Assembly: GCA_030591195.1 (NCBI GenBank)
Contig: JAUVBO010000027.1
Location: 1-11,474, forward strand
Origin: Pseudomonadota bacterium
GTDB lineage: Bacteria > Myxococcota > Polyangia > GCA-2747355 > JACKDQ01
DNA: 11,474 nt
Direction: 5' to 3'
This document shows, piece by piece, positions 1-11,474 of this stretch (positions are counted from its first letter, which is position 1; each line of letters begins with the position of its first letter). The notes beneath the pieces are model-generated. The model ran no database searches. It was not told the origin of the DNA and saw nothing but the letters and a program-made list of their open reading frames with translations. A program made the translations under genes and the position numbers.

Positions 1-909
1 AGGGTCGACGGGCTGATCGCCTGGTCCAGCTCCCGGGTTGGCAACCACGACATCTACCTGATGAAGACCGACGGTGCGCTGGTGCGGCGGTTGACCCGCT
101 CGGAACACGTCGACTGGTATCCGCGCTTCTCGCGCGACGGCAAGCGGATCCTCTTCACCCGCAGCAAGCGTGGCTGGGTCGCGGAGACCGACGCCAACCG
201 GCTCAACAAGTGGGACCTGTTCCTGATCGACACCGCTGGCGGACCGCCAAAGAAGATCGTCGACAACGCCAGCTGGGGCACCTGGATCGGCGCCGACGAG
301 ATCCTCTACTCGCGCAAGACCAAGGTCTTGACCAGGAAGCTCGATGGGACCGAGACGTTGCTCGTCGACAGCACCCAGGTCGAGGGGCTTGGCGGCGCCG
401 ACCTGCAGACCCCCCACCTCTCGCCCGACCGCAAGTTCCTCACCATCACGCTGCGCGGCGCCAGGCGCGAGACCGGTATCTACAACCTCGGCGAGAAGAC
501 CTGGGTCGCCACCGGCCAGGGATGCCAGGTCAACTGGTTCCCCGCCGGGGATCGCATCATCTGGATCAATCCCTCGGGCAACGGCGGCAGCGAGGTCTTC
601 AGCATGCCGGTGGCCGGCGGAAAGCCGACCAAGGAGTTTTCCGCCGAGGAGATGCGCTTCATCGACATCCCCGGGCGGCAGTCCCACGAGTACTTCCCCC
701 AGCTGTCGCGTGCTGGCAAGTGGCTGGTCTGGGGTGCCACGCGCCGCGGGCACGACCACGACATCGCCGACTACGACGTCTTCATCTGGCAGGTCGGGTC
801 GCCCCACGGCGAGGTGGCCCGGCTGACGTTCCACAGCGGCAACGACCGCTGGCCCGACATCTTCATCCCCCAGCAGCCCGAGGCTGCCGCAGCGGGGGCC
901 AGCAAGTGA
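1..909 (+). CDS. TolB-like PD40 beta-propeller protein, 5' partial
   Basis: The frame is open from base 1, so the gene begins outside the window; the in-frame ATG at 61 is internal because repeat sequence continues upstream of it (GLIAWSSSRVGNHDIYLM). The visible 302 residues contain repeated PD40/WD40-type blades. Typical pieces are DIYLMKTDG, WYPRFSRDGKRILFTRS, DLFLIDTAGG and TPHLSPDRKFLTI. These match the periplasmic TolB C-terminal propeller pattern, in which each blade carries an SPDGxxIAF-like strand and a DIYxxxxDG strand. The C-terminus is a short Ala-rich tail. Family knowledge suggests a secreted or periplasmic protein-binding propeller; the missing 5' end hides any signal peptide, so the location is inferred. 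The stop overlaps the next gene by four bases (GTGA), which implies translational coupling to the outer-membrane-type protein. The ligand or partner is unknown. Confidence 0.85.
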   Translation, partial: RVDGLIAWSSSRVGNHDIYLMKTDGALVRRLTRSEHVDWYPRFSRDGKRILFTRSKRGWVAETDANRLNKWDLFLIDTAGGPPKKIVDNASWGTWIGADEILYSRKTKVLTRKLDGTETLLVDSTQVEGLGGADLQTPHLSPDRKFLTITLRGARRETGIYNLGEKTWVATGQGCQVNWFPAGDRIIWINPSGNGGSEVFSMPVAGGKPTKEFSAEEMRFIDIPGRQSHEYFPQLSRAGKWLVWGATRRGHDHDIADYDVFIWQVGSPHGEVARLTFHSGNDRWPDIFIPQQPEAAAAGASK

Positions 910-1979
910 GCACGCCGCAGAACCTGCCGCGCGCGCTCTTCGTCGCCGTGACCTTGGGTCTGGTCGTCCTCTCGCTCGAGCCGTTGCTCGATCGCACGCT
1001 GGCCCACCGGCAAGCCCGGCAGGTCACCAGCGCGGCCGCCGAGGCGGTGGCGGATGGAGGGCAGGGTCCCGGCACGCGCTGTGGCGAGGACCGGACGGCG
1101 CTGCTGCGGCTGCGGGCTCACGCGCCGTTGCTGAGCAGCTGGGAAAACGTCGGCGGGTGTGGTGCCGGTGGGGGAGGGGCGAGCTCGACCAGCGGCGGCG
1201 CGAAGTGGATCGGCCGCGGCGTTCGCGGCGGGCGCTTCGATCTGCAGTGCATCGGCAGCCAGACCTTCGCCCCCGATGGCGCGTACTTCACCACCGTCAA
1301 CACGCGGGTCGCCACGGGCGCCTTGCTGCAGAAGTGGAGCATCGCGGCCAACATCCCGCTGGTGCACAAGCGGCAGGAGCTCGAGGAGATCGACGCCGGC
1401 GTGGCGCCCAGCGGCTTCGGCGACGTCAGCCTCGAGCTGACGCGCAAGCTCGGCATCACCAACGCCAGCATCGCGACGCTGGTGGTGAGCTTTCCGCTGG
1501 GGGCTCACGACGCCGTTCGCCAGGGCGTCGTGCTGCCACAGCACCTGCAGCTCGGCGCCGGCGTGCCGAGCTTCACCGGGGTCTTCGAGCACACGGCCGA
1601 CTTTGACGGCGGGCTGATGGTCCTCGGCGGCAGCTTCACCTATGGCGGCTGGGAAAACAGCATCAAGGACTTCCGCGCCCCGAGCATCGCCGCCTACAGC
1701 TACGTCGGCTACATGCTCGGGCCCTTCGTCCCCTCGGTGGGCTTGACCGCCGCAGCCAAGCTTGGCCAGGACCGCGAGGGTGATCGGGCCGAGGAGGACC
1801 TCGAGCTGCGGCAGTCGAAGGCGCTGGAGGAGGTGCCGATCGCCACCGCCACGGTCAACCTCGGGCTCGAGTGGTCAACCGACTGGTTCGCCCTGTTGCT
1901 CTCCGCCGCGACACCTTTCTCCGCCGACGGGGTCGAGTCGTTCACCCTCTCGCTCGGTGCCTCCACCTCGCTCTTCTGA
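906..1979 (+). CDS. Outer-membrane beta-barrel-like protein
   Basis: This 357-residue protein starts at a GTG inside the stop codon of the preceding gene; the same frame is open further upstream, but that part is only a shadow of the propeller gene. Residues 10-24 form one hydrophobic stretch (ALFVAVTLGLVVLSL), read as a signal peptide or anchor. A Gly-rich segment with one Cys follows at about residues 83-101. The remainder has alternating hydrophobic/polar strands with many aromatic and Gly residues (for example DGGLMVLGGSFTYGG and YSYVGYMLGPFVPSVGL) and ends in a terminal Phe, as expected of a beta-barrel recognised by the BAM machinery. It loosely resembles the transporter-like barrels annotated as meta-pathway phenol-degradation family, but I cannot assign it firmly. 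Context suggests an envelope role together with the propeller and glycan genes. The substrate is unknown. Confidence 0.75.
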   Translation: MSTPQNLPRALFVAVTLGLVVLSLEPLLDRTLAHRQARQVTSAAAEAVADGGQGPGTRCGEDRTALLRLRAHAPLLSSWENVGGCGAGGGGASSTSGGAKWIGRGVRGGRFDLQCIGSQTFAPDGAYFTTVNTRVATGALLQKWSIAANIPLVHKRQELEEIDAGVAPSGFGDVSLELTRKLGITNASIATLVVSFPLGAHDAVRQGVVLPQHLQLGAGVPSFTGVFEHTADFDGGLMVLGGSFTYGGWENSIKDFRAPSIAAYSYVGYMLGPFVPSVGLTAAAKLGQDREGDRAEEDLELRQSKALEEVPIATATVNLGLEWSTDWFALLLSAATPFSADGVESFTLSLGASTSLF

Positions 1980-1997
1980 TCGCGTCCGAGACCATCG

Positions 1998-3083
1998 ATG
2001 ACCCCGGCCGCCCCCCCCGAGCAACAGCAGACCCTGCGGATCGCCGTTCTCGGTGGCGGTGGCTTCCTCGGCTCGCACCTGATCGCGGCCCTGCTGGCGC
2101 GCACGGCCCACCGGTTGATCGCCGTCGATGTCGATCTGGACCGGCTCGATCAGCTGGGCCGGGCCGAGGGGCGCCTGCGACGAGTCGAGGCGTCGATCAG
2201 CGAGCCGGGGATCGTCGAGGCTGCGGTGGACCAGAGCGACCTGGTGATCTCGCTGACAGCCCTCTGCAACCCCTCGCTCTACAACACCCGCCCGCTCGAG
2301 GTGATCGACGCCAGCTACACCGACCTCGTCCCGCTGGTCCGGCGCTGCGCCGCCTTGCGGCGCCGGCTGGTGCACTGCTCGACCTGCGAGGTCTATGGTG
2401 CCACCGCCCCGGACACGCTCCTCTCCGAGGACCAGACGCCGCTGGTGCTCGGCCCGGTGCACCGCGAGCGCTGGACCTACGCCTGCGCCAAGCAGCTGCT
2501 CGAGCGAACGATCTGGGCCCTTGGTCAGCACGGCGAGCTGCCGTTCACCATCGTCCGGCCCTTCAACGTCATCGGGCCGCGGATGGACTACCTCGCGGGG
2601 GTCGACGGCGACGGCATCCCCCGGGTCCTGGCCTGCTTCATCGGCGCGCTGCTGGCCGGTGAGCCGCTCGCGCTGGTCGACGGCGGCCATCGGCGCCGGT
2701 CGTTCATCTGCGTCGACGACTTCGTCGGCGGGATGCTGCGGGTGATCGCGCGGCCGGAGGCCTGTCGGGGGACGATCCTCAACCTCGGCAACGCCGAGAA
2801 CGATGTCTCGATCGCCGAGCTCGCCGACCGGCTCGCGGCCGTCTTCGTCGAGCGGCACGGCGGGATCGATCCCGGGCGGCAGGTTGTCAGCGGCGAGGCG
2901 TTCTACGGCCCCGGCTACGACGACGCTGAGCAGCGGATCCCAGACATCGCTCGGGCGCGGCGCCTGCTCGACTGGCAGCCGACGACGACGCTGGCGCAGA
3001 TGCTGCCCCCGATCATCGACGACTACGTCGCCCGCTACGCTGGCCGGATCCCGGCGCGGTCCGCGGGACGGGCGCAGGGGTGA
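1998..3083 (+). CDS. UDP-apiose/UDP-xylose synthase-like SDR enzyme
   Basis: This 361-residue extended short-chain dehydrogenase of the ArnA/AXS branch probably converts UDP-glucuronate, with bound NAD+, to a decarboxylated pentose nucleotide. The NAD-binding GxxGxxG lies at residues 19-25 (GGGGFLG), and the YxxxK pair is Tyr161/Lys165 in RWTYACAK. From remembered sequences, plant AXS fits better than the ArnA dehydrogenase domain. Shared stretches are NTRPL (96-100), STCEVYG (128-134), FTIVRPFN, IGPRMD, IPRVLACF (207-214), and FYGxGYDD before RIPD (302-316). Both cysteines linked to plant AXS chemistry have counterparts, Cys90 (ALCNP) and Cys130 (STCE), where E. coli ArnA has Ser at the second site. 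Glu131, Arg158 and Arg313 are also kept. It lies 18 bases after the barrel gene without a strong Shine-Dalgarno and overlaps the GT2 gene. The alternative is a plain UDP-xylose or UDP-4-ketopentose synthase. Confidence 0.85.
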   Translation: MTPAAPPEQQQTLRIAVLGGGGFLGSHLIAALLARTAHRLIAVDVDLDRLDQLGRAEGRLRRVEASISEPGIVEAAVDQSDLVISLTALCNPSLYNTRPLEVIDASYTDLVPLVRRCAALRRRLVHCSTCEVYGATAPDTLLSEDQTPLVLGPVHRERWTYACAKQLLERTIWALGQHGELPFTIVRPFNVIGPRMDYLAGVDGDGIPRVLACFIGALLAGEPLALVDGGHRRRSFICVDDFVGGMLRVIARPEACRGTILNLGNAENDVSIAELADRLAAVFVERHGGIDPGRQVVSGEAFYGPGYDDAEQRIPDIARARRLLDWQPTTTLAQMLPPIIDDYVARYAGRIPARSAGRAQG

Positions 3084-3826
3084 GCCGCGTCGGGCCGCGG
3101 CGCGGGATCGTCATCCCGGCCTTCAACGCCGCGACGACCCTGCCGGGGGTCTTGCGCCGGATCCCGCGCGAGACGCTGGCGAACCTGGCCGGGATCTGGA
3201 TCGTCGACGACGGCAGCCGGGACGGCACCGCCGCAGTGATCGAGGCGCTCGCTCGCGAGCACCGGACAGTGAGCGGCGTGTGGTTGCCGCGCAATCGCGG
3301 CTATGGCGGCGCGATGAAGGCCGGGCTGGCGGCGGCGCGGGAGGCCGGGGTGGAGCAGCTGGCTTGCCTCCACGCCGACGGGCAGTACGCGCCCGAGCGG
3401 CTGCCGTCGCTGCTCGCGGCGCTGGGCGACGAGGAGCTCGATCTGGTTCAGGGTTCGCGCATCGCCTCGGGCACCGGGATCAGCGGCGGGATGCCGCTCT
3501 ACAAGTACGTCGCCGGCCGGCTGCTGACCTCGCTCGAGAACCGCGTCTTCGGCCTGCGGATGACCGACTACCACAGCGGCTACCTGGTCTACGGTCGCCG
3601 GGCGCTCGAGCGGGTGCCGTTTGCCGCGCTCAGCGACAGCTTCGACTTCGACCTCGAGGTGATCGCCTGCTGCCGGGCCCTGGGGCTCTGCATCGGCGAG
3701 CTGCCGATCCCGACCCACTATGGCGACGAGGTCTCCTACCTCAACCCCGCGACCTACGGGCTGCGGGTGCTGCGCGTGATGGGCAACTACCTCGTCGGAC
3801 GGTACGATCGCTTGGTCCGAGCCTGA
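3080..3826 (+). CDS. DPM-type GT2 family glycosyltransferase
   Basis: This 248-residue GT-A fold enzyme is of the dolichol-phosphate mannose/glucose synthase-like group. The GTG start overlaps the preceding TGA by four bases, with an AGGGG run just upstream. Visible motifs are IPAFNAA (12-18), the nucleotide-binding VDDGSRDGT (42-50), NRGYGGAMKAGL (72-83), the metal-binding HADGQY (98-103) in place of a DxD, and the family signature GGMPLYKY through SFDFDLE (136-193). The C-terminal PTHYGDEVSYLN (211-222) is also typical. No membrane helices follow the catalytic domain, so it is a cytoplasmic or peripheral enzyme of the short DPM1 type and not the ArnC/GtrB type with two C-terminal helices. 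Family enzymes usually transfer a sugar from a nucleotide donor to a polyprenyl phosphate. Position suggests it could use the product of the adjacent SDR enzyme, but donor and acceptor are not determined by the sequence. Confidence 0.9.
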   Translation: MSRVGPRRGIVIPAFNAATTLPGVLRRIPRETLANLAGIWIVDDGSRDGTAAVIEALAREHRTVSGVWLPRNRGYGGAMKAGLAAAREAGVEQLACLHADGQYAPERLPSLLAALGDEELDLVQGSRIASGTGISGGMPLYKYVAGRLLTSLENRVFGLRMTDYHSGYLVYGRRALERVPFAALSDSFDFDLEVIACCRALGLCIGELPIPTHYGDEVSYLNPATYGLRVLRVMGNYLVGRYDRLVRA

Positions 3827-3851
3827 CGCCTGCGGAGCCAAAGGGGGAACG

Positions 3852-5975
3852 ATGAACGGCCACAACCCGGGCAGGGTCTTCAGCTCGCTGCTCCTCGGCG
3901 TCGGGCTCGCGGTGGGGTGCAACGGCGCGGGCTTTCCCTGGCCCCTCGAGGACCCGGGCAAGGTGGGCAGCGCGGGGCTGGGCCACGCCGAGGTCGAGCA
4001 GCTCGGCGCTGGCTACGACCGGCGTCTGGCCAGGGCGATGGTCCGGCGAGTGGCGCGGCCGACGCGAGCCAACCTCGACTACGCGGCCTACGCGGCGAAC
4101 GTGATGTTGCATCAGCCCGACGCCGAGGTGGTCCAGCCCGAGGGTCAGGTGCGGGTGGACCAGGCCCAGCTCTTTGACGGCTTCGTCGTCGCCGACAGCA
4201 TCGTCGCTGCCATCGCCAGGACGCCCCTGACCGAGGCCGAGCGTCGCGCGCCGCTGGCGTTCACTCCGCTGGTCGACTACCTGTCCCAGTGGGACCCGGC
4301 GCAGGGCGGCCCGCTGGAGGACGCGCGGGCGGCGGTCCGAGGCGAGACCTGGGGCGCGACCAAGCGTCCAGGGACGACGTTTCAGCAGATCGTCGCGCTC
4401 TACGTCCACCGGCCGGCGGGCGGGGCGGTCCAGCTCTGGGCCCGGATCGAGTTCCAGCCGTGGGCCAAGCTCTTTGCGGGCATGCCCGACGAGGACGGCG
4501 ATGGCTATCCCCAGGTCTACGGGCGGCTGAAGGGCGGGCTGGCGAGCTCGGCGGTGATCGCGCGGATCGAGGAGGACTACATCGGGCGGGTGCTGTCGGC
4601 CGCCGAGGTCCTTACCTGGGCCAACGAGCTGGCCAGCTACTGGTACCCCTCGCACAACACCGACATCGCTGACCTCGGCGGGGCCCAGGTCTGGCCAGCG
4701 CCGGCGACGGAGCGGGCGGTCACAGCGTCCCTCGGGGGACTGTCGATCAGGGAGCCGACGCTGGTGATTCGCGGCAAGCCCCACGGTCAGCCGATCTATA
4801 ACGTGATCGTCGTGCCGGGGATGCCGAGCTTGAGCGCGAAGAAGAAGGCGTCCGGCGGCGCGGCGGGGGCCACGGCGTTGGTCGCGGCGCTGAAGCAGGC
4901 CAAGGTCAGCGCCGACCCCGGCCCGTTGGTCGAGGCGCTCGAGGCGGAGCGCGACCGACAGGCCGGCAAGGGCGGGGCCGCCGGGCAGGGTGGGTACCAG
5001 GGCTGGGCCCGGCGGCTCGCCCCGCTGCATCGCGCGATTCGCCGGCAGCTGAAGCGGCGGCCGAAGAAGCTCCAGACGCTGATCGGCAGGCAGGGGTTTC
5101 TCTTCTACCGCAGATCGCTCGACTCCGTCGTCGGCGGCGACGTGCAGCAGCAACCCAAGGGAAAAAACCCGATGCCGGCGATCCTCGCCTTCCAGCAGCA
5201 CCTGGCGCGACACGGCGTCGACTTCTTGCTGGTGCCGGTGCCGACCAAGGCGGAGGTCTTCCCCGACAAGCTGCGTCACAGCCGGGTCAGGGCTGACCAG
5301 CTCGAGCCGATCAACCCCTACGGTCGCAAGTTCCTGCTCGAGCTCGCGCGCGGCGGGGTGGAGGCGGTCGACCTGCTGCCGACCTACCTGGCGGCGCGCG
5401 CCAAGCGGGGACCGGAGGACGAGCTGCTCTACCAGCCCCAGGACACCCACTGGACCGATCGCGGGCTGCGGATCGCCGCGCGGACCATCGCCGAGCGGAT
5501 CAAGCGCTACCCGTGGTACCCCGCCCTGGCCAGGAGGGCCGTCAAGTACGGCACCAGGGCGGTCTCGTTCCAGCGGCTCGGCGACCTGCACTCGCGGCTT
5601 GCGCCGCCAGAGCAACCCCGCTTCAAGCCGGCCCAGCTCGTCGGGCACCAGGTGCTGAGTCCGGACGGCAAGCCCTACGAGGATCAGCTCGGCAGCCCGA
5701 TCGTGATCATCGGCGACAGCTTCACCGGCGTCTTCCAGCGGACCTACTGCAAGCACGCCGGGGTCTCGGCCCACGTCGCGCGGGAGATCGGCTACCCCGT
5801 CGATCTCGAGATGAGCTGGGGGGGCGGTCCGAGCGTGCGCCAGCGGCTGCTCGAGCGGGGAGTCGACGCGTTGAAGAAGGTCCGCCTGGTGATCTGGCTC
5901 TTCGCCAGCCGCGACTTCCACAACTACTGGGAGGACTGGGAGGTGCTGGAGGCCGCCAAGTCTCCTGGAAAGTGA
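3852..5975 (+). CDS. Large lipoprotein with AlgX/AlgJ-type SGNH acyltransferase domain
   Basis: This 707-residue exported protein starts at an ATG preceded by a strong purine-rich site (AAGGGGGAAC, 3841-3850). Residues 9-23 form a lipoprotein signal ending LAVGC, so Cys23 is the likely lipidation site. The large N-terminal domain (about 24-320) is not recognised; it includes an acidic DEDGDGYP (213-220) that could bind calcium. A Lys/Ala/Gly-rich linker (about 330-405) follows. The C-terminal part (about 408-707) opens with GRQGFLFY, like the GWLFY start of AlgX/AlgJ domains. It has DTHW (531-534), supplying the catalytic Asp and His, and GDSF (621-624), supplying nucleophile Ser623. AlgX and AlgJ O-acetylate exported polysaccharide in the periplasm, usually with a membrane-bound MBOAT partner; none is visible here. 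Position after the SDR and GT2 genes suggests acylation of the glycan they help make. The acyl group and acceptor are unknown. Confidence 0.85.
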   Translation: MNGHNPGRVFSSLLLGVGLAVGCNGAGFPWPLEDPGKVGSAGLGHAEVEQLGAGYDRRLARAMVRRVARPTRANLDYAAYAANVMLHQPDAEVVQPEGQVRVDQAQLFDGFVVADSIVAAIARTPLTEAERRAPLAFTPLVDYLSQWDPAQGGPLEDARAAVRGETWGATKRPGTTFQQIVALYVHRPAGGAVQLWARIEFQPWAKLFAGMPDEDGDGYPQVYGRLKGGLASSAVIARIEEDYIGRVLSAAEVLTWANELASYWYPSHNTDIADLGGAQVWPAPATERAVTASLGGLSIREPTLVIRGKPHGQPIYNVIVVPGMPSLSAKKKASGGAAGATALVAALKQAKVSADPGPLVEALEAERDRQAGKGGAAGQGGYQGWARRLAPLHRAIRRQLKRRPKKLQTLIGRQGFLFYRRSLDSVVGGDVQQQPKGKNPMPAILAFQQHLARHGVDFLLVPVPTKAEVFPDKLRHSRVRADQLEPINPYGRKFLLELARGGVEAVDLLPTYLAARAKRGPEDELLYQPQDTHWTDRGLRIAARTIAERIKRYPWYPALARRAVKYGTRAVSFQRLGDLHSRLAPPEQPRFKPAQLVGHQVLSPDGKPYEDQLGSPIVIIGDSFTGVFQRTYCKHAGVSAHVAREIGYPVDLEMSWGGGPSVRQRLLERGVDALKKVRLVIWLFASRDFHNYWEDWEVLEAAKSPGK

Positions 5976-5991
5976 TCGCCCTCGGTCGGAT

Positions 5992-6043
5992 CAGCAGTCA
6001 CCCCGCTCCGGATGCGCAACGCGAGACGGCGGGGTCACTGCTG
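5992..6043. terminator. Possible bidirectional terminator hairpin between convergent genes
   Basis: CAGCAGTCACCCCG (5992-6005) and CGGGGTCACTGCTG (6030-6043) form an inverted repeat with 13 of 14 positions paired and a 24-base loop. It begins 16 bases after the stop of the AlgX-like gene, and the right arm covers the stop codon of the facing lipoprotein gene. Location and symmetry suggest transcription from both sides ends here. There is no T-run on either strand and the loop is long, so a classical intrinsic terminator is uncertain. Confidence 0.4.
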
Positions 6044-7771
6044 GCAGGCCGCCTGGCCGAAGGACCACGGCGGCAGCAGCATCCGCGCTTGCCATGTCGA
6101 CAGGCTCAGCTCGCGCTGGCTCGTCCGCGCCGGATCGTGGATCGTCGCCGCGAGCTCGTAGGCGAAGTCGAAGTGCTCGACCAGCCGCGGCACGCCGAAG
6201 CCGATGTTGACCTTCCAGCCCTGGCTCGCCGCGACCATCCGTTCGCCGTCGTAGGTCACGCAGAGTCCGCCCTGCACGTAGCCGAGCTTGCGGTCGATGA
6301 CCTTGATGCCGCTGGCGCTGGCCACGACGTGGTGCAGCCCACCGAGATGAAACAGCGTCCCGTTCCAGGCCGCCTTGGCGATGTCGATCACGTTGGTGAA
6401 GCTGCCGAGCAGCGTCGAGGCGACGGTGGCGAGGTCGAGCCCACCGCCGACCAGCGCACCGACGCCGATCTTGAACAGGATCGTGAGCAGCACTGCCGAG
6501 TCGGACGACATCGAGGTGACGTAGATCGCGCCGTCGGGCATGAAGGCCACGTCGCTCGGCACGTGGGCCTCGGGCAGGGACAGGCGCTCGACCCGGTGCG
6601 CGCCTCGCCGGACGTCGATCACCGAGATGGTGCTGTTGTCCAGGTCGAGGTTGTAGGTCTCGGGGACCAGGGCACCCAGGCCACCTCCGGCGAGCACCGC
6701 GGCGGTCTGGCCGTCGCCGGACAGCGCGAGTGCCTGGGCGCTGCCTCCCCGGACCTTGATCAACCCGAGGGCACCCGAGAGCAGGGGAATCGGCAGGTCG
6801 ACCATCGGCCGGACCGGGCTGCCGTCCGAGATCACGATGCCCTCGTGAATCACCAGGGGCGCTGACGGGGTGGAGATGTCATGGACCGAGATCTGGTCGG
6901 CGGCGCCGTCGAGCACTACCGCTCGCGTGCCGTCCGGACCGAGCGCCACCTTGGTCAAGAACCCGGCATCGATCTCGGGCAGAGCCCCCCCGGTGTCGAT
7001 CGAGACCGACCGGATCGCTCCTACGGCCACCGGGCGCCGCGGCTCGCTGATGTCGTACAGCGTGACGTGCAGGCCGCGGGCCACGGCGAGCACCGGCGCG
7101 TCGCCAGCCGTCGCGAGGCCGAAGACTGGCATCCTCACCGAGCCGTTGTCGCTGACCTCGCCCGGCAGCAGGGCCGGGCCGCCTGCTGCGGTGAGGTCGA
7201 TGACCCGGATCGCTGGCGCCGCGGTGGCGCTCGCGGCCGTGCCGACGTAGGCCACGGCGCTGTCGTCGGACAGGGCCAGCCACTCGGCGTCGGGGACGTC
7301 GAGGCGCATCGAGGTGTCGCTGATCTGGCCCGGGCTCGCTTCCTCGAGGACGGCCACCTGGTGGCCGGCGGGCATGCTCACCAGGTGATAGCGCCTGACC
7401 GTCAGCTCGAACGAGGTCTCGCCGCCATCGCAGGCGATGATCGGACGCTGGCGACCGACCGGGATCCCCTCGGGGACCTGGAGCTGGATCTCCTCGGAGC
7501 TCACGGCGATCACGCGGGCCTGGGCGGTGCCGAGGCGCACCGAGCACGCCCCGTCGAGGTGCTGGCCGGCGACACCGATCCACTCGCCGACCACGGCGGC
7601 TCCGTCGCCATCGTTGTCAATGACGTGGCTGACCGAGGGGGACGCGGGCAGGTCCGGTGTGCCCTCGTCGGCTCCGGCATCGATGACGTCGCCCGCCCCT
7701 GCTCCAGGGGCGCTGCTCTGGCAGCCCACCGTCGCCAACACGAGACATCCGAGCACCGATCGCCAGATCAT
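6035..7771 (-). CDS. Beta-propeller lipoprotein with IPT/TIG-like domain
   Basis: The start is set at the ATG at 7771 because a GGAGG lies six bases upstream and the resulting 578-residue protein begins with a compact signal, MIWRSVLGCLVLATVGC, with likely lipidation at Cys17. The frame extends to an earlier ATG at 7822, which would add an Arg-rich extension and spoil the signal. After an Ala/Gly/Asp-rich linker, residues of roughly 45-130 resemble an IPT/TIG immunoglobulin-like fold (VVGEWIGVAGQHL, IQLQVPEGIPVGRQRP). The rest has propeller-style repeats such as WLALSDDSAVAYVG, VALGPDGTRAVVLDG, ALALSGDGQTAAVLAG and DVAFMPDGAIYVTSM, as in YVTN/LVIVD surface proteins. A hydrophobic insertion lies near residues 420-460. 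It is probably an outer-surface or periplasmic binding protein. Its ligand is unknown, and no enzymatic motif is seen. Confidence 0.85.
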   Translation of the reverse strand: MIWRSVLGCLVLATVGCQSSAPGAGAGDVIDAGADEGTPDLPASPSVSHVIDNDGDGAAVVGEWIGVAGQHLDGACSVRLGTAQARVIAVSSEEIQLQVPEGIPVGRQRPIIACDGGETSFELTVRRYHLVSMPAGHQVAVLEEASPGQISDTSMRLDVPDAEWLALSDDSAVAYVGTAASATAAPAIRVIDLTAAGGPALLPGEVSDNGSVRMPVFGLATAGDAPVLAVARGLHVTLYDISEPRRPVAVGAIRSVSIDTGGALPEIDAGFLTKVALGPDGTRAVVLDGAADQISVHDISTPSAPLVIHEGIVISDGSPVRPMVDLPIPLLSGALGLIKVRGGSAQALALSGDGQTAAVLAGGGLGALVPETYNLDLDNSTISVIDVRRGAHRVERLSLPEAHVPSDVAFMPDGAIYVTSMSSDSAVLLTILFKIGVGALVGGGLDLATVASTLLGSFTNVIDIAKAAWNGTLFHLGGLHHVVASASGIKVIDRKLGYVQGGLCVTYDGERMVAASQGWKVNIGFGVPRLVEHFDFAYELAATIHDPARTSQRELSLSTWQARMLLPPWSFGQAACQQ

Positions 7772-7788
7772 GATCTGCCTCCGCCGCC

Positions 7789-7807
7789 TGCTTCGGCGCA
7801 CGAAGCA
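7789..7807 (-). promoter_or_regulatory. Perfect hairpin directly upstream of the ribosome-binding site
   Basis: TGCTTCG (7789-7795) and CGAAGCA (7801-7807) are perfectly complementary, giving a 7-bp stem with a 5-base loop. In the minus-strand message it ends six bases before the GGAGG (7778-7782) of the beta-propeller lipoprotein gene. It could influence ribosome access or mRNA stability. No function is proven by the sequence, and short stems arise easily at this GC. Confidence 0.35.
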
Positions 7808-7900
7808 CGCCACAAGACGCACGAGCTACACCCCAACAGTACACGATCGGATTCTTGCGGGTAGGTCGGTCCCTCTAGCCCCGTGTGGGCGAAGCGCGTC

Positions 7901-8968
7901 TCAGCTGCAGTATTCCTTGAGGTGACACTGGGTTACCCCGTTGAAGTGGCAACAGCTCGACCAGCTGAGGTAGCAGCACTCGCCGTTGCAGACGCCGTAG
8001 CCCGAGTTGCACTTCTTGGTGCAGGTGCCCTGGTTGCACTCGCCGTAGCCGTCGCCCTGGGGCGGCTGGCAGACGTTGCCGCAGCTGCCGCAGTTGTTCT
8101 CGTCGTAGTTGAGGTCGACGCAGGAGCCACCACAGTTGGTCTTGGTGCCGCTGCAGCTGACGTCGCACTGGCCGGCGTTGCAGGTCGGGGTGCCGCTGGT
8201 CGACCCGCAGGCCTGACCACAGGTGCCGCAGTGGTTGACGTCCGAGGCCAGATCGACGCACTCGCCGTACGGCCACTCGGTCAGCGTGCACAGCGTCTTG
8301 CCGGCCGGGCAGGCCGGCGCGCACTGACCGCTGACGCAGGTCACCGATCCGCCCTGAGTGTATGCGCACTGGTTGCCGCAGGTGCCGCAGTTGTCGGTGT
8401 CGTGGGTGGTGTCGAAGCAGCCCTCGCCGCAGCGCTGGGCGCCGCCGGCGCACTGAAAGTCGCAGGTGCTGTTGCTGCAGACCGGCGTCGCCTTGTCCGG
8501 CGCGTCGCAGCCGAGGCCGCAGTCTCCGCAGTGCGCCGGATCGCTGGCGGTGTTGACGCAGCTACCAGCGCAGATCGTCTCGCCGGTGCCGCAGCAGCTG
8601 TGGGTCGCGGGGTTGCAGGGGTTGCCGGCGCAGTGATCGTCGGTGGCGCAGCCGGGCAGACAGCGGCCGTTGCCGAGGTCGCAGTAGTGGCCACTCGGAC
8701 AGCCGGTGCCCTCGCGGCAGTCGCCCGCGCTGGCCTGGCACTGTCCGTCGACGCAGAGGTCGTCGCCGCAGGACTTGCCGCAGCCGCCGCAGTGGGCCGG
8801 CTCCGTCAGCGGATCGACGCAGGATCCGCCGCACGAGACCCAGGGCGGCAGGCAGAGTCCGCCGCTGCCGGTGGGCTTGCTCGGTCCAGGGTGGTCCTTG
8901 TCAGCGCTGCCGCAGCCGCTGGTGACCAGCAGGCCGAGGAGAGAAAGGGACAGCATCGCTCGATTCAT
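7901..8968 (-). CDS. Cysteine-rich modular lipoprotein, myxobacterial type
   Basis: The ATG at 8968 is chosen because a GGAGGT lies just upstream and the 355-residue product starts with a signal, MLSLSLLGLLVTSGC, ending at candidate lipid Cys19. The open frame continues upstream but has no better start. The mature protein is about 16% Cys (57 by my count). Five modules (residues 46-77, 133-169, 180-216, 227-268, 279-316) share near-fixed spacing: C-x3-C-x9-C-x2-C-x3-C-x(4-10)-C-x4-C, with the core D-x2-x-C-G-x-C-G. The first Cys gap is longer in module four. A distinct segment (84-126, with CPSGHYC and CLPGC) sits between modules one and two, and a C-terminal block has paired CC. Such repeats are common in secreted Myxococcota proteins, where disulfide-rich stalk or adhesion roles are presumed. 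Partner and true function are unknown. Confidence 0.88.
   Translation of the reverse strand: MNRAMLSLSLLGLLVTSGCGSADKDHPGPSKPTGSGGLCLPPWVSCGGSCVDPLTEPAHCGGCGKSCGDDLCVDGQCQASAGDCREGTGCPSGHYCDLGNGRCLPGCATDDHCAGNPCNPATHSCCGTGETICAGSCVNTASDPAHCGDCGLGCDAPDKATPVCSNSTCDFQCAGGAQRCGEGCFDTTHDTDNCGTCGNQCAYTQGGSVTCVSGQCAPACPAGKTLCTLTEWPYGECVDLASDVNHCGTCGQACGSTSGTPTCNAGQCDVSCSGTKTNCGGSCVDLNYDENNCGSCGNVCQPPQGDGYGECNQGTCTKKCNSGYGVCNGECCYLSWSSCCHFNGVTQCHLKEYCS
8021..8833 (-). repeat. Five degenerate repeat units encoding the Cys modules
   Basis: The units correspond to 8738-8833, 8462-8572, 8321-8431, 8165-8290 and 8021-8134. They share recurrent plus-strand words such as GTGCCGCAG that reflect the conserved CGxCG core. 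The DNA copies are diverged while the Cys spacing is kept, which points to old duplication under protein-level selection and not to a recent tandem expansion. Confidence 0.75.
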
Positions 8969-8973
8969 CACTG

Positions 8974-8985
8974 ACCTCCGGAGGT
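8974..8985 (-). promoter_or_regulatory. Ribosome-binding site inside a 12-bp palindrome
   Basis: ACCTCCGGAGGT is a perfect palindrome whose minus-strand copy provides GGAGGT six bases before the ATG of the Cys-rich lipoprotein. The site decides the start at 8968. The symmetry could serve as an operator or be a by-product of a strong Shine-Dalgarno sequence. Confidence 0.5.
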
Positions 8986-9025
8986 GATCCAGATCTGCCG
9001 GTGGTCCTACGAGTCGCGGAGGTGA

Positions 9026-9069
9026 GGCTTCCCGACGATTGTCGCGGGGGCAGTGGCCCGCACGAAGCC
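9026..9069 (-). other. Possible three-way-junction RNA between two minus-strand genes
   Basis: GGCTTC (9026-9031) pairs with GAAGCC (9064-9069), enclosing a small stem CGAC/GTCG (9033-9036 with 9041-9044) and a second stem CGGG/CCCG (9045-9048 with 9057-9060). It lies in the 131-base gap between the metallopeptidase-like gene and the Cys-rich gene, so it would be in the 3' region of the former or the leader of the latter. The stems are short; it may be a weak terminator or chance. I saw no convincing promoter in this gap. Confidence 0.25.
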
Positions 9070-9099
9070 GAGGGAGGTTGATGCTGGCGGTGGTGACGG

Positions 9100-9984
9100 T
9101 CAGGTCATGTTCGGGTAGGTGCCGAGTCCCACCTGGGCCTTCTTGTGTGCCCACTGGACGGCCGCCTTGCTGTAGCTTGGCAGGTAGACGTTGGGCGTAG
9201 CGGTCGACGCTGCATTGGCGAGCATCTTGGTGATCAGCGCTCTGGGGCCCAGGGCGCTGGTGAACTTGCCGTTGTGACCTCCTGAGGTCGTGTATGGTCG
9301 CTTGCCGCCGTGCAGGGTCAAGCTGATGGGCCACTCGTTCTGCTCGACGTTCAGCTCCTCCATCAGGATCAGCCCCCACTCCTTGTAGGCCTGCTGCTGG
9401 GCCTCGCTCGCCAGCTGGGCAGCTGCTGTGAGCCTGATGGTGTCGAGGTACCACTTTGGATTGCCGATGTACTGGCACGCGTGTCCCAGCTCGTGCGCCA
9501 ATCGCACCGGGTCGCAGAGTCCGGTCTGACGAAGCCCGCTCGGCTTTTTCGCCTTCGGGAATGCGGAAGTATTCCAGGTGCCACTCCGCTTGAGCCCGCT
9601 GCCGTCGACGGTGTATTCCGCGAACACCTTCTTTTCAGGCACGAAGGTCGGGATGCCCAATCTCACCAGCGCGAACTTGCCGGTCGTGGGCTTTGCCAGC
9701 GAGGCGGAGAACTCGCTGTGAACCTCTGGTGGCGTGAAGAAGGTGTCCTGCGGATGGGACCCAGAGCCGTACAGCGCCACGGTGATATCCGAAGCGCCGA
9801 TGATCTGCTTGATCTCCGTCCAGCGCGCGTCCTGGCTCTCATCGAGGACGGTGAGCATCTTTGTGATCGCGGTGTCATACTGATCGAGGGAGCCTGTCGC
9901 GCCCCATCGCTGAGCGACGACGATCCTCTCCATCTGGGCGCGGGCGTTCTTACCGGCGCTGCTCAGCAGCTTGTACGATCCCAC
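9100..9984 (-). CDS. Zinc metallopeptidase-like protein (HExxH), possibly M91/NleD-like
   Basis: The GTG start at 9984 is supported by AGGAG seven bases upstream. The 294-residue protein has no signal peptide or membrane segment. The key feature is HELGH at residues 164-168 within DPVRLAHELGHACQYIG, the zincin motif in which both His bind zinc and Glu165 is catalytic. About 40 residues on, MEELNVEQNE (208-217) offers Glu residues that could be the third zinc ligand, recalling the E-x-N-x-x-x-N/E region of M91-type effector peptidases such as NleD. The assignment to M91 is a resemblance by eye and not secure. Two hand-counted 60-base lines gave about 60-62% GC against about 67% in the glycan operon, so recent acquisition is possible. 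Lack of a signal suggests a cytoplasmic protein or one exported by a specialised secretion system. The substrate is unknown. Confidence 0.72.
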   Translation of the reverse strand: MGSYKLLSSAGKNARAQMERIVVAQRWGATGSLDQYDTAITKMLTVLDESQDARWTEIKQIIGASDITVALYGSGSHPQDTFFTPPEVHSEFSASLAKPTTGKFALVRLGIPTFVPEKKVFAEYTVDGSGLKRSGTWNTSAFPKAKKPSGLRQTGLCDPVRLAHELGHACQYIGNPKWYLDTIRLTAAAQLASEAQQQAYKEWGLILMEELNVEQNEWPISLTLHGGKRPYTTSGGHNGKFTSALGPRALITKMLANAASTATPNVYLPSYSKAAVQWAHKKAQVGLGTYPNMT

Positions 9985-10253
9985 AGGTCTTCTCCTTTGG
10001 AGTCAGTGACAGCGGCGCGGTCCGGTGGCACGAGGGCAGCAACTGCAGCTCGCGACTCGAGGGCCGCGACACGGCAAGGTTGCCGAGATTCCGCATCACG
10101 CGATGATACCAGAGGCGGCGTGAGGCCTCAGGGATCTCGTCGGCTGATCGGCTCGGTAAGCGGTGGCGACGCGTGCGACGCGCTCGGGGCTCGCAGGCGC
10201 CTGGCACGGCGGCACGCTGGCGGCCGACTGGGTCGAGGCGGTATCATCGGCTG
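9985..10253. other. Divergent intergenic region
   Basis: This 269-base spacer separates the minus-strand metallopeptidase-like gene from the plus-strand pair that follows. It contains the minus-strand promoter candidate and a perfect 10-base inverted repeat, CGATGATACC (10101-10110) and GGTATCATCG (10240-10249). The second copy places a TATCAT -10-like box (10242-10247) 6 bases before the GTG at 10254, without a recognisable -35. An open frame across part of this region (minus, ending at 9950) has no ribosome-binding site or protein-like composition and is not called. Confidence 0.6.
10103..10131 (-). promoter_or_regulatory. Candidate sigma70-type promoter for the metallopeptidase-like gene
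   Basis: Reading the minus strand, CTGAGG (10126-10131) is followed after exactly 17 bases by TATCAT (10103-10108). These match three of six -35 positions (TGA) and four of six -10 positions. Transcription would start near 10096 and give a leader of about 110 bases before the GTG at 9984. It is the best promoter-like pair I found in the window. Confidence 0.45.
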
Positions 10254-10460
10254 GTGCGCTTCCTGCTTTCAGCGCTGGTCGGGGTCGCCGATGGCGTGAT
10301 CGTCACCCGGGACGCCGAGGGCGCCTGGGATGTGCAGGATCCGCTGCCCACGCCCCGACTCAACGACGTGTCCGTGGTCCTCGACCAACGAAAGGCGGTG
10401 GTGGGCTACGCGGTAGGCGAACGGGGCGTGATGGCCAGGCTTGGCTCGGTCCTGCCGTGA
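10254..10460 (+). CDS. Small ORF resembling a single propeller blade; possibly leaderless or a gene remnant
   Basis: This would encode 68 residues from a GTG at 10254. No Shine-Dalgarno is visible, but a TATCAT box ends 6 bases upstream, which would fit a leaderless message. The product reads GVADGVIVTRDAEGAWDVQ, then LNDVSVV and VGYAVGERGVMARL. That is the pattern of one Ycf48/BNR-type propeller blade (DGVI-x-R, GxW, LxxVS, GYAVGxxGxxxR). A single blade cannot close a propeller, so this may be the tail of a larger decayed gene, although I found no continuation in other frames upstream. Its stop overlaps the next GTG start by four bases, suggesting that its translation feeds that of the lipoprotein. 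The alternative is an untranslated leader of the lipoprotein gene. Confidence 0.5.
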   Translation: MRFLLSALVGVADGVIVTRDAEGAWDVQDPLPTPRLNDVSVVLDQRKAVVGYAVGERGVMARLGSVLP

Positions 10461-11335
10461 GGCGCGGGCGCCCGCTCTGGCTCGTGGGGCTGGTCCTCGT
10501 CAGCGGTGGTTGTCCGGATCGTGTCGCCCCCACGCCGTCCCGCATCGAGCCGATCGGTCCGCTGACCCGCGAGCTGCTCGCGTTTGGTGAGCAGGCCCGG
10601 CTCGATCTACAGCTCGAGGTGCCGGATGCGGCGGCGACTCGGCGACGGCTCGTGGGGCTCGTTGGCCGGGTCCGTCGAGCGCTCGAGGGAGAGAAGCTCG
10701 TCGGCGGAGCGGCGGTGGTCAGGATCAACCGCCTGTTGTTTGGCGAGCTCGGCTACCGGCGGGAGGTCCACGACCGGTCTCCGGAGCTGATGCTGCTGTC
10801 GCGGATCCTCGAGCGACGCCGGGGATCCTGCGTCGGCCTCGGCGCGCTCTATCTCGCGCTCGGCGAGGCCACGGGGCTGCCGATCCGGGGCGTGCTGGTT
10901 CCGGGACACTTCTTCGTCCGGCTGGATCCAGCGAAGGGGCGTCGCCTGGGCATCGAGCTGCTCAAGCGCGGGCGCGCGATGCCTGCCGCTTGGTACCGCC
11001 GCAAGTACCGGGTGCCGGATCGAAACCCGACCTACCTCGCGCAGAGCCTGACGGCCAGCCAGTCCCTCGCAGTGTTTCGCTACAACCTCGCCAACGAGTA
11101 CCGCCTGCGCGGCCAGTACCGCCGGGCGCGGGCGGCATACGAGGCGGTGCTGGAGCAGCTCCCGCGCTTCGCCGAGGCCCGGGCCAGCCTCGGGTTGGTG
11201 CACCAGCTACAGGGCCACCGCGCGCTGGCCTTGCGGGCCTACGTGCAGGCCCGCAAGGACAACCCCAAGATCCAGGGCCTGGACCAGAACCTCGAGGCCC
11301 TGGACCAGCGCCTCGAGGCATCGAGCAAGCGCTGA
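10457..11335 (+). CDS. SirB1/transglutaminase-like TPR lipoprotein
   Basis: The GTG at 10457 lies in the preceding stop and gives 292 residues beginning with a lipoprotein signal, LWLVGLVLVSGGC, with candidate lipid Cys19. The same frame is open upstream, but that part has no protein-like character. Residues of roughly 45-165 match the SirB1 (transglutaminase-like core 2) pattern: VVRINRLLFGELGY, then RRGSCVGLGALYLALGEATGLPI with Cys125, then VPGHFFVRL with His151. Cys and His occupy the positions of a transglutaminase-type active site; a third residue is not obvious, and activity in this family is mostly untested. The C-terminal part (about 205-285) holds two TPR repeats (YNLANEYRLRGQYRRARAAY and ASLGLVHQLQGHRALALRAY). 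It is probably an envelope-anchored protein-interaction or processing factor. Its role cannot be fixed from the neighbours. Confidence 0.82.
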   Translation: MRRGRPLWLVGLVLVSGGCPDRVAPTPSRIEPIGPLTRELLAFGEQARLDLQLEVPDAAATRRRLVGLVGRVRRALEGEKLVGGAAVVRINRLLFGELGYRREVHDRSPELMLLSRILERRRGSCVGLGALYLALGEATGLPIRGVLVPGHFFVRLDPAKGRRLGIELLKRGRAMPAAWYRRKYRVPDRNPTYLAQSLTASQSLAVFRYNLANEYRLRGQYRRARAAYEAVLEQLPRFAEARASLGLVHQLQGHRALALRAYVQARKDNPKIQGLDQNLEALDQRLEASSKR

Positions 11336-11366
11336 TCCGGACTACCGGCCGCCGTGACCGCCGCCG

Positions 11367-11474
11367 TCAGTCGCCGAAGAGGACGTGCCAGATCAGGCGG
11401 CGGATCCCGTGGTGGCCAGCCTGGTTCGGGTGAATGCAGTCGTACTGGAGCCAGAGCGTCGGGTCGTCGGCGTG
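11367..11474 (-). CDS. SGNH/GDSL hydrolase, C-terminal fragment
   Basis: The minus strand reads 35 codons from the window edge to a TGA at 11367-11369. The product ends with LQYDCIHPNQAGHHGIRRLI followed by WHVLFGD. The DCIHPN segment is block V (DxxHPN) of SGNH/GDSL esterases, supplying the catalytic Asp and His, and the following GH-x-GI-x-x-LI is the usual closing helix. The rest of the gene, including the GDS nucleophile block, is outside the window, so substrate and export signal are unknown. It converges on the TPR lipoprotein gene with only 31 bases between stops; no clear terminator is seen there. Confidence 0.72.
   Translation of the reverse strand, partial: HADDPTLWLQYDCIHPNQAGHHGIRRLIWHVLFGD

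Follow-up and report, generated by a model that had tools for sequence, protein, structure and literature searches.

Apiose is a branched sugar that is best known from plants, where it is essential in pectin, and to our knowledge few bacteria that make it have been described. In a 2017 report, UDP-apiose/UDP-xylose synthases (UAS, termed AXS in plants) are described from Geminicoccus roseus, Xanthomonas pisi and Candidatus Entotheonella, and no apparent conserved operon is noted around its four genes (PMC5607165). The apiose operon of X. pisi has the order XpUAS-XpApiT(GT90)-XpXylT(GT2) and in 2018 appeared exclusive to that species (PMC6193724). Here, a window of 11,474 nucleotides was analyzed (contig JAUVBO010000027.1, positions 1 to 11,474 of the forward strand, assembly GCA_030591195.1), from a genome named Pseudomonadota bacterium and assigned by GTDB to the Myxococcota; the relatives of its synthase likewise suggest a myxococcal origin. 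The gene at 1998-3083 (+) encodes a UAS homologue of 361 aa, an extended short-chain dehydrogenase/reductase (SDR). Residues, a position outside the UDP-xylose synthase and ArnA clades, and sequence and fold matches make it a well-supported UDP-apiose synthase candidate within a known family, and the conserved operon around it points to a lipid-linked apiose pathway. To the whole reading, in which UDP-glucuronate would be converted to UDP-apiose, then to lipid-linked apiose and finally to an O-acylated surface glycan, we assign a probability of roughly 60%. Unlike the four genes of the 2017 report, the clade of the window synthase has a conserved operon. The label "UDP-apiose/xylose synthase" is already carried by many close relatives (JGI) and is thus no novelty in itself.

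The open reading frame (ORF) of the synthase is intact, with an ATG start at 1998 and a stop at 3083. GC content at codon positions 1, 2 and 3 is 0.74, 0.49 and 0.92, the third being highest in the same pattern as in the neighbouring genes, so that the ORF reads as a real gene of such DNA. AXS1 of Arabidopsis (6H0N) is its best solved relative both by sequence and by fold, and the sequence match (299.5 bits, E 3.1e-88) is too strong for the likeness to be chance. Identity is 43.8% to AXS1 and 40.2% to the X. pisi UAS, or 40-44% overall for the plant and X. pisi enzymes. The glycines of the NAD-binding GxxGxxG of extended SDRs (G19, G22, G25) are invariant, and the catalytic Thr-Tyr-Lys residues correspond to T129, Y161 and K165. 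All ten active-site positions tabulated for AXS1 in PMC12820599 hold the same residue in the synthase, namely Cys90, Tyr95, Thr129, Cys130, Glu131, Arg158, Tyr161, Lys165, Asn190 and Arg313. In these ten residues, in both cysteines and in its best fold match the synthase therefore resembles AXS1; it differs in lying in a bacterial operon and in an aligned stretch of 333 residues against 356 in AXS1, from which it follows that some loops of the plant enzyme are absent. Membership of the same family and the same catalytic residues, including the cysteine at the Cys100 site, are likewise shared with the bacterial synthases of 2017, the comparison having been made with the X. pisi enzyme only (locus L021, on contig NZ_JPLE01000032, as named in PMC5607165). 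The product is very probably UDP-apiose, accompanied by UDP-xylose.

The two cysteines require closer consideration. The preliminary description had aligned Cys90 and Cys130 with Cys100 and Cys140 of plant AXS, and alignment to Arabidopsis AXS1 bears out both assignments. Cys90 (codon 2265-2267, +) lies within LTALCNPSLYN and Cys130 (codon 2385-2387, +) within HCSTCEVYG, and every further motif quoted, RWTYACAK, IGPRMD, IPRVLACF and FYGPGYDDAEQRIPD, is present in the translation of 1998-3083. It had also been stated that ArnA-type decarboxylases carry Ser at the second site, and this holds for Escherichia coli ArnA, where Ala393 aligns with the first cysteine and Ser433 with the second; the synthase has Cys at both positions. 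Among its 119 nearest homologues (P0002-P0120, from the best 120 of 1,774), the Cys100 site is Cys in 119/119, and Ala occupies it in ArnA-clade and UXS-like sequences, UXS denoting UDP-xylose synthase. At the Cys140 site the same 119 homologues show 112 Cys, 4 Ala and 3 Ser. As a marker of UAS against ArnA the second cysteine has to be abandoned, because the X. pisi UAS, the product of which is proven by mass spectrometry and nuclear magnetic resonance in PMC5607165, has Cys at the first site and Ser at the second, in which it differs from the window synthase. Ser also stands at the second site in Alloyangia pacifica (L014), the gene of which is named without assay in PMC5607165; Cys at the first site is combined with Ala at the second in Sorangium (L006) and in the related loci L007 and L010, and within the clade of the synthase itself some members have Ser or Ala there. 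The residue table was compiled with the near-copies L015, L017, L025, L056 and L061 left out. On these alignments the cysteine at the Cys100 site alone is what separates the families here, Ala being found in ArnA and UXS, and this rule fits both proven enzymes compared, AXS1 and the X. pisi UAS. In the locus L023 (7989-12547) the X. pisi pattern is reversed: its UAS homologue has Ala at the Cys100 site while keeping Cys at the Cys140 site, and the genes after it encode a GT2 of the kind found next to the window synthase, an SDR and a PMT_2 protein. This natural variant could serve to test the cysteine rule.

The position of the synthase relative to ArnA and UXS was analyzed with two trees, which hold a single plant sequence and do not include the proven Geminicoccus and Entotheonella enzymes. 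In the 63-row tree, which contains UXS, uses 16 of the 119 nearest homologues and additionally leaves out L057, L072, L073, L074 and L078, the synthase falls within a 30-row clade (support 100/100). ArnA/U4kpxs sequences form a separate clade of 7 rows (100/100), and UXS-like rows, so called by score and residues rather than by assay, form their own clade of 5 rows (100/100). By the phylogenetic check proposed in the preliminary description, the synthase is thus outside both of these clades. In the 40-row tree without UXS, one branch (99/96) divides 35 bearers of Cys at the Cys100 site from four ArnA-clade rows and L023; the synthase stands with the plant and X. pisi UAS when UXS is omitted and not when it is included. 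Of 12 columns separating eight chosen UAS rows (L016, L022 and L058 of that group being unused) from seven ArnA-clade rows, 9 are UAS-like in the synthase. The earlier proposal of a UAS candidate accordingly stands as regards the relationship to AXS1, the position outside UXS and ArnA and the separating columns, and fails as regards the second cysteine. That the enzyme is instead an ordinary UXS or an ArnA-type decarboxylase serving lipid A modification of the polymyxin type would agree with the common superfamily and with a match of 267.9 bits to PRK11908, the NCBIfam model of the ArnA decarboxylase/U4kpxs. The match lies below the cut-off of 294 bits, as does that of the X. pisi UAS (275.5 bits); the synthase is outside both clades, its 361 aa leave no room for a formyltransferase domain, and among the neighbouring proteins scanned, families of the arnB or arnD type were not found. 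We regard this explanation as very improbable.

Several observations weigh against a lipid-linked apiose pathway and favour an enzyme that mainly makes UDP-xylose or UDP-4-keto-pentose, with the GT2 product of the next gene acting as a polyprenyl-phosphate pentosyltransferase for that sugar. In the tree with UXS as outgroup, the synthase clade joins ArnA, L023 and L011 of the Fibrobacterota (97/88), and a tree constrained to keep the 50 sequences with the Cys100-site cysteine apart from the remaining 13 is rejected, though weakly (approximately unbiased test, p 0.029). On its sequences the synthase clade is a separate, well-supported and largely myxococcal lineage that is not nested among proven synthases. 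Moreover, L023 pairs the same GT2 with a homologue lacking the Cys100-site cysteine, the second site is Ala in the Sorangium-type members, and the Geminicoccus enzyme GrUAS makes UDP-xylose beside UDP-apiose at about 1 to 1.7, as given in PMC5607165. The joining with ArnA may be partly a long-branch effect. Set against these points are the invariant first-site cysteine of the nearest homologues, where ArnA-clade and UXS-like sequences have Ala, and the UAS-like state of the separating columns; on balance UDP-xylose or UDP-4-keto-pentose as the main product appears unlikely, and UDP-apiose is preferred.

The gene following the synthase, at 3080-3826 (+), starts with GTG, overlaps the UAS stop by 4 bases (GTGA) and encodes a GT2 glycosyltransferase of 248 aa resembling polyprenyl-phosphate sugar synthases. 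In its predicted GT-A fold, the ten best matches are all polyprenyl-phosphate sugar synthases, the closest being DPMS, ArnC and GtrB. Its best NCBIfam match is PpgS, a polyprenyl-phosphate enzyme, far under the cut-off (69.6 of 370 bits), and it is 27% identical to E. coli ArnC. By simple hydropathy no membrane helix was detected in it, unlike E. coli ArnC, which shows two hydrophobic segments. C-terminal membrane helices are absent from some polyprenyl-phosphate GT2 members, for example human DPM1. Judged from the predicted fold, the GT2 resembles transferases that load a sugar onto a lipid carrier of the membrane, polyprenyl phosphate. A cytoplasmic transferase that moves apiose from UDP-apiose onto another soluble or lipid acceptor is improbable, though somewhat less so than a different main sugar nucleotide, in view of the fold matches, the PpgS match and the GT87 and PMT_2 genes that follow the UAS-GT2 pair in L022 and L023. 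With a lipid carrier as the acceptor, the arrangement resembles the ArnA-ArnC-ArnT aminoarabinose route, which likewise joins a UDP-glucuronate decarboxylase to a polyprenyl-phosphate-type GT2, to which the GT87 or PMT_2 gene of these two loci may be compared; it differs in a synthase that stands outside the ArnA clade and has no formyltransferase domain. The four-base overlap between the UAS gene and a glycosyltransferase gene is shared with the X. pisi operon. In contrast to that operon, no GT90 was found in the window or the clade loci, and among 36 loci GT90 occurred only at L019, L020 and L021 (tblastn, 1e-10). A relationship of the GT2 to XpXylT was considered and rejected, only matches of 20 and 72 residues being obtained (best E 0.002) and no full-length similarity. 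The UAS-GT90 pair of X. pisi is also present in Lysobacter chinensis and a Lysobacterales metagenome-assembled genome (L019 4851-7024, L020 7938-10258), with GT90 proteins 73% and 65% identical to that of X. pisi.

The distribution of the synthase was analyzed in 377 genomes drawn from the phylum to which Sorangium So0157-2 belongs, with scores for the five best candidates of each genome. The first-site Cys is present in the homologue of twelve genomes and replaced by Ala in that of one (G158, holding L023), and four genomes have an ArnA-clade homologue (L068-L071). Eight of the twelve belong to a second UAS group with both cysteines (L059, L060, L062-L067; 100/100). With the window GT2 as query, 14 genomes that have a UAS homologue were searched, the Cys100 site being Cys in 13 of them and Ala in one; a match of at least 232 bits was obtained in all but G343, hence in 13 of the 14. 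The GT2 gene lies within 1 kb of UAS in 11 of these 13 genomes and on another contig in G195 and G009; G195 and G271 each have one further GT2 match (E under 1e-50, 44-45% identity) away from UAS. The same query, with the 14 genomes as positive control, gave no match at E<=1e-50 in 64 genomes in which the best-scoring candidate had not been a UAS homologue, of which 60 were taken in handle order and four carry an ArnA-clade gene. The difference, 13/14 against 0/64, gives 6e-14 in Fisher's test with kinship ignored. In the second group the GT2 gene is convergent with UAS in L094, L096, L097, L099, L101 and L102, and therefore the linkage survives rearrangement. The loci L094-L097 and L099-L102 hold second-group homologues of the same phylum, with both cysteines where checked and GT2 convergent in 6 of the 8 (for L102, the UAS is absent from the tree); UAS and GT2 of L099 are separated by two YbjQ-type genes.

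The genes surrounding UAS and GT2 also recur. In the window, the PD40, outer-membrane protein (OMP)-like, UAS, GT2 and AlgX-like genes are co-directional, with 4-base overlaps at PD40/OMP-like and UAS/GT2. The PD40 beta-propeller gene (1-909, +; PF07676) is cut by the left end of the window. The OMP-like gene (906-1979, +), for which the name is a guess and no Pfam match was found, is read by us as starting at GTG 906, overlapping the PD40 stop, since the similarity of relatives to the longer ORF 210-1979 covers its residues 232-589. The AlgX/SGNH-domain protein of 707 aa (3852-5975, +; PF16822, E 2.5e-26), with a signal sequence and lipobox-like LAVGC, is a candidate carbohydrate O-acyltransferase. 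The last member of the conserved cluster encodes a Transglut_core2 and TPR protein (10163-11335, +; PF13369, E 1.1e-18), the true start of which is uncertain, a lipobox-like stretch running from near 10493. Across the 12 clade loci compared (L001-L010, L024, L026) the order UAS, GT2, AlgX-like is kept in all, although in L003 about 1.7 kb with two ORFs precedes the AlgX-like gene and in L005 UAS is followed by a gap of ~0.3 kb. The AlgX-like gene is followed by the Transglut_core2/TPR gene in 10/10 loci with enough sequence (L002 and L009 end earlier), and PD40 lies upstream of UAS in 10 of the 11 reaching that far (absent from L005; L004 is cut). Only four loci (L001, L003, L005, L009) have the OMP-like gene immediately before UAS, and hence it is not a constant member. 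Six loci (L006, L007, L008, L010, L024, L026) show the series MBOAT, short AlgX-like, SDR, PD40, UAS, GT2, AlgX-like and Transglut/TPR, and in L011 of the Fibrobacterota UAS, GT2, SDR and MBOAT genes are accompanied by two of the AlgX-like type, a PD40 gene beginning where the locus ends. The cluster-adjacent SDR of the relatives gives general SDR matches only, all NCBIfam scores being below cut-off. A polytopic TPR protein of L006 has 7-8 hydrophobic segments, for which reason we presume it to be a GT-C candidate; BLASTP gave no support for its homology to the PMT_2 protein of L023 (E 0.39).

Three minus-strand genes at 6035-9984 separate the AlgX-like and Transglut/TPR genes of the window. 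The stretch looks like an insertion in this lineage, since the two genes adjoin in the clade loci with enough sequence. Its genes encode a 578-aa lipoprotein-like protein (6035-7771, -), an MXAN_6577-like cysteine-rich protein (7901-8968, -; NF041328, 140 bits against a cut-off of 100, and a STIG1-type match, PF04885) with a lipoprotein-like signal from ATG 8968, and a protein with the zinc-protease-type motif HELGHACQ (9100-9984, -). The first and third have no Pfam or NCBIfam match at 0.001.

The proposed pathway draws on sequence homology and active-site residues, on the clade and its gene order, on the linkage and co-occurrence of the GT2, and on predicted folds. During the first stage, the synthase would oxidise UDP-glucuronate at C4 using tightly bound NAD+, and the ring would be opened by retro-aldol cleavage between C2 and C3, a step to which Cys90 would be tied. 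For AXS1, the mechanism of which is taken from PMC12820599 and PMC7984243, Cys100 has a role in proton transfer and ring opening (PMC12820599). Coupled C4 oxidation and retro-aldol opening precede decarboxylation, according to PMC5324594. Decarboxylation would follow, then re-closure mostly to the furanoid branched sugar and its reduction to UDP-apiose, with UDP-xylose as by-product. During the second stage, the GT2 may transfer apiose from UDP to polyprenyl phosphate, in the way that ArnC transfers formyl-aminoarabinose. Once flipped, this lipid-linked apiose would serve as substrate of a membrane enzyme of the GT-C type, for which candidates occur only in the clusters of relatives, and the resulting surface glycan may be O-acylated by the MBOAT/AlgX-type proteins.

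Literature searches found no description of UDP-apiose in Myxococcota, nor of UDP-apiose together with undecaprenyl, and this UAS lineage was not found described in the literature on UDP-apiose gene clusters in bacteria since 2019. We tentatively put forward, at somewhat less than even odds, a second, lipid-linked bacterial apiose route, in which the close partner of UAS would be a GT2 of a new class, acting as apiosyl-phosphopolyprenol synthase, and a conserved cluster fed by it in Myxococcota and Fibrobacterota would build and O-acylate a cell-surface glycan bearing apiose. For the family, the sequence rule is corrected, UAS not being marked by the second AXS cysteine, and the window GT2 is proposed as a second apiosyltransferase family, dissimilar to the GT90 of X. 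pisi. The operon also occurs in Sorangium cellulosum So0157-2 (locus L006), and it would show that apiose is built into some bacterial surfaces and is no oddity of a single strain.
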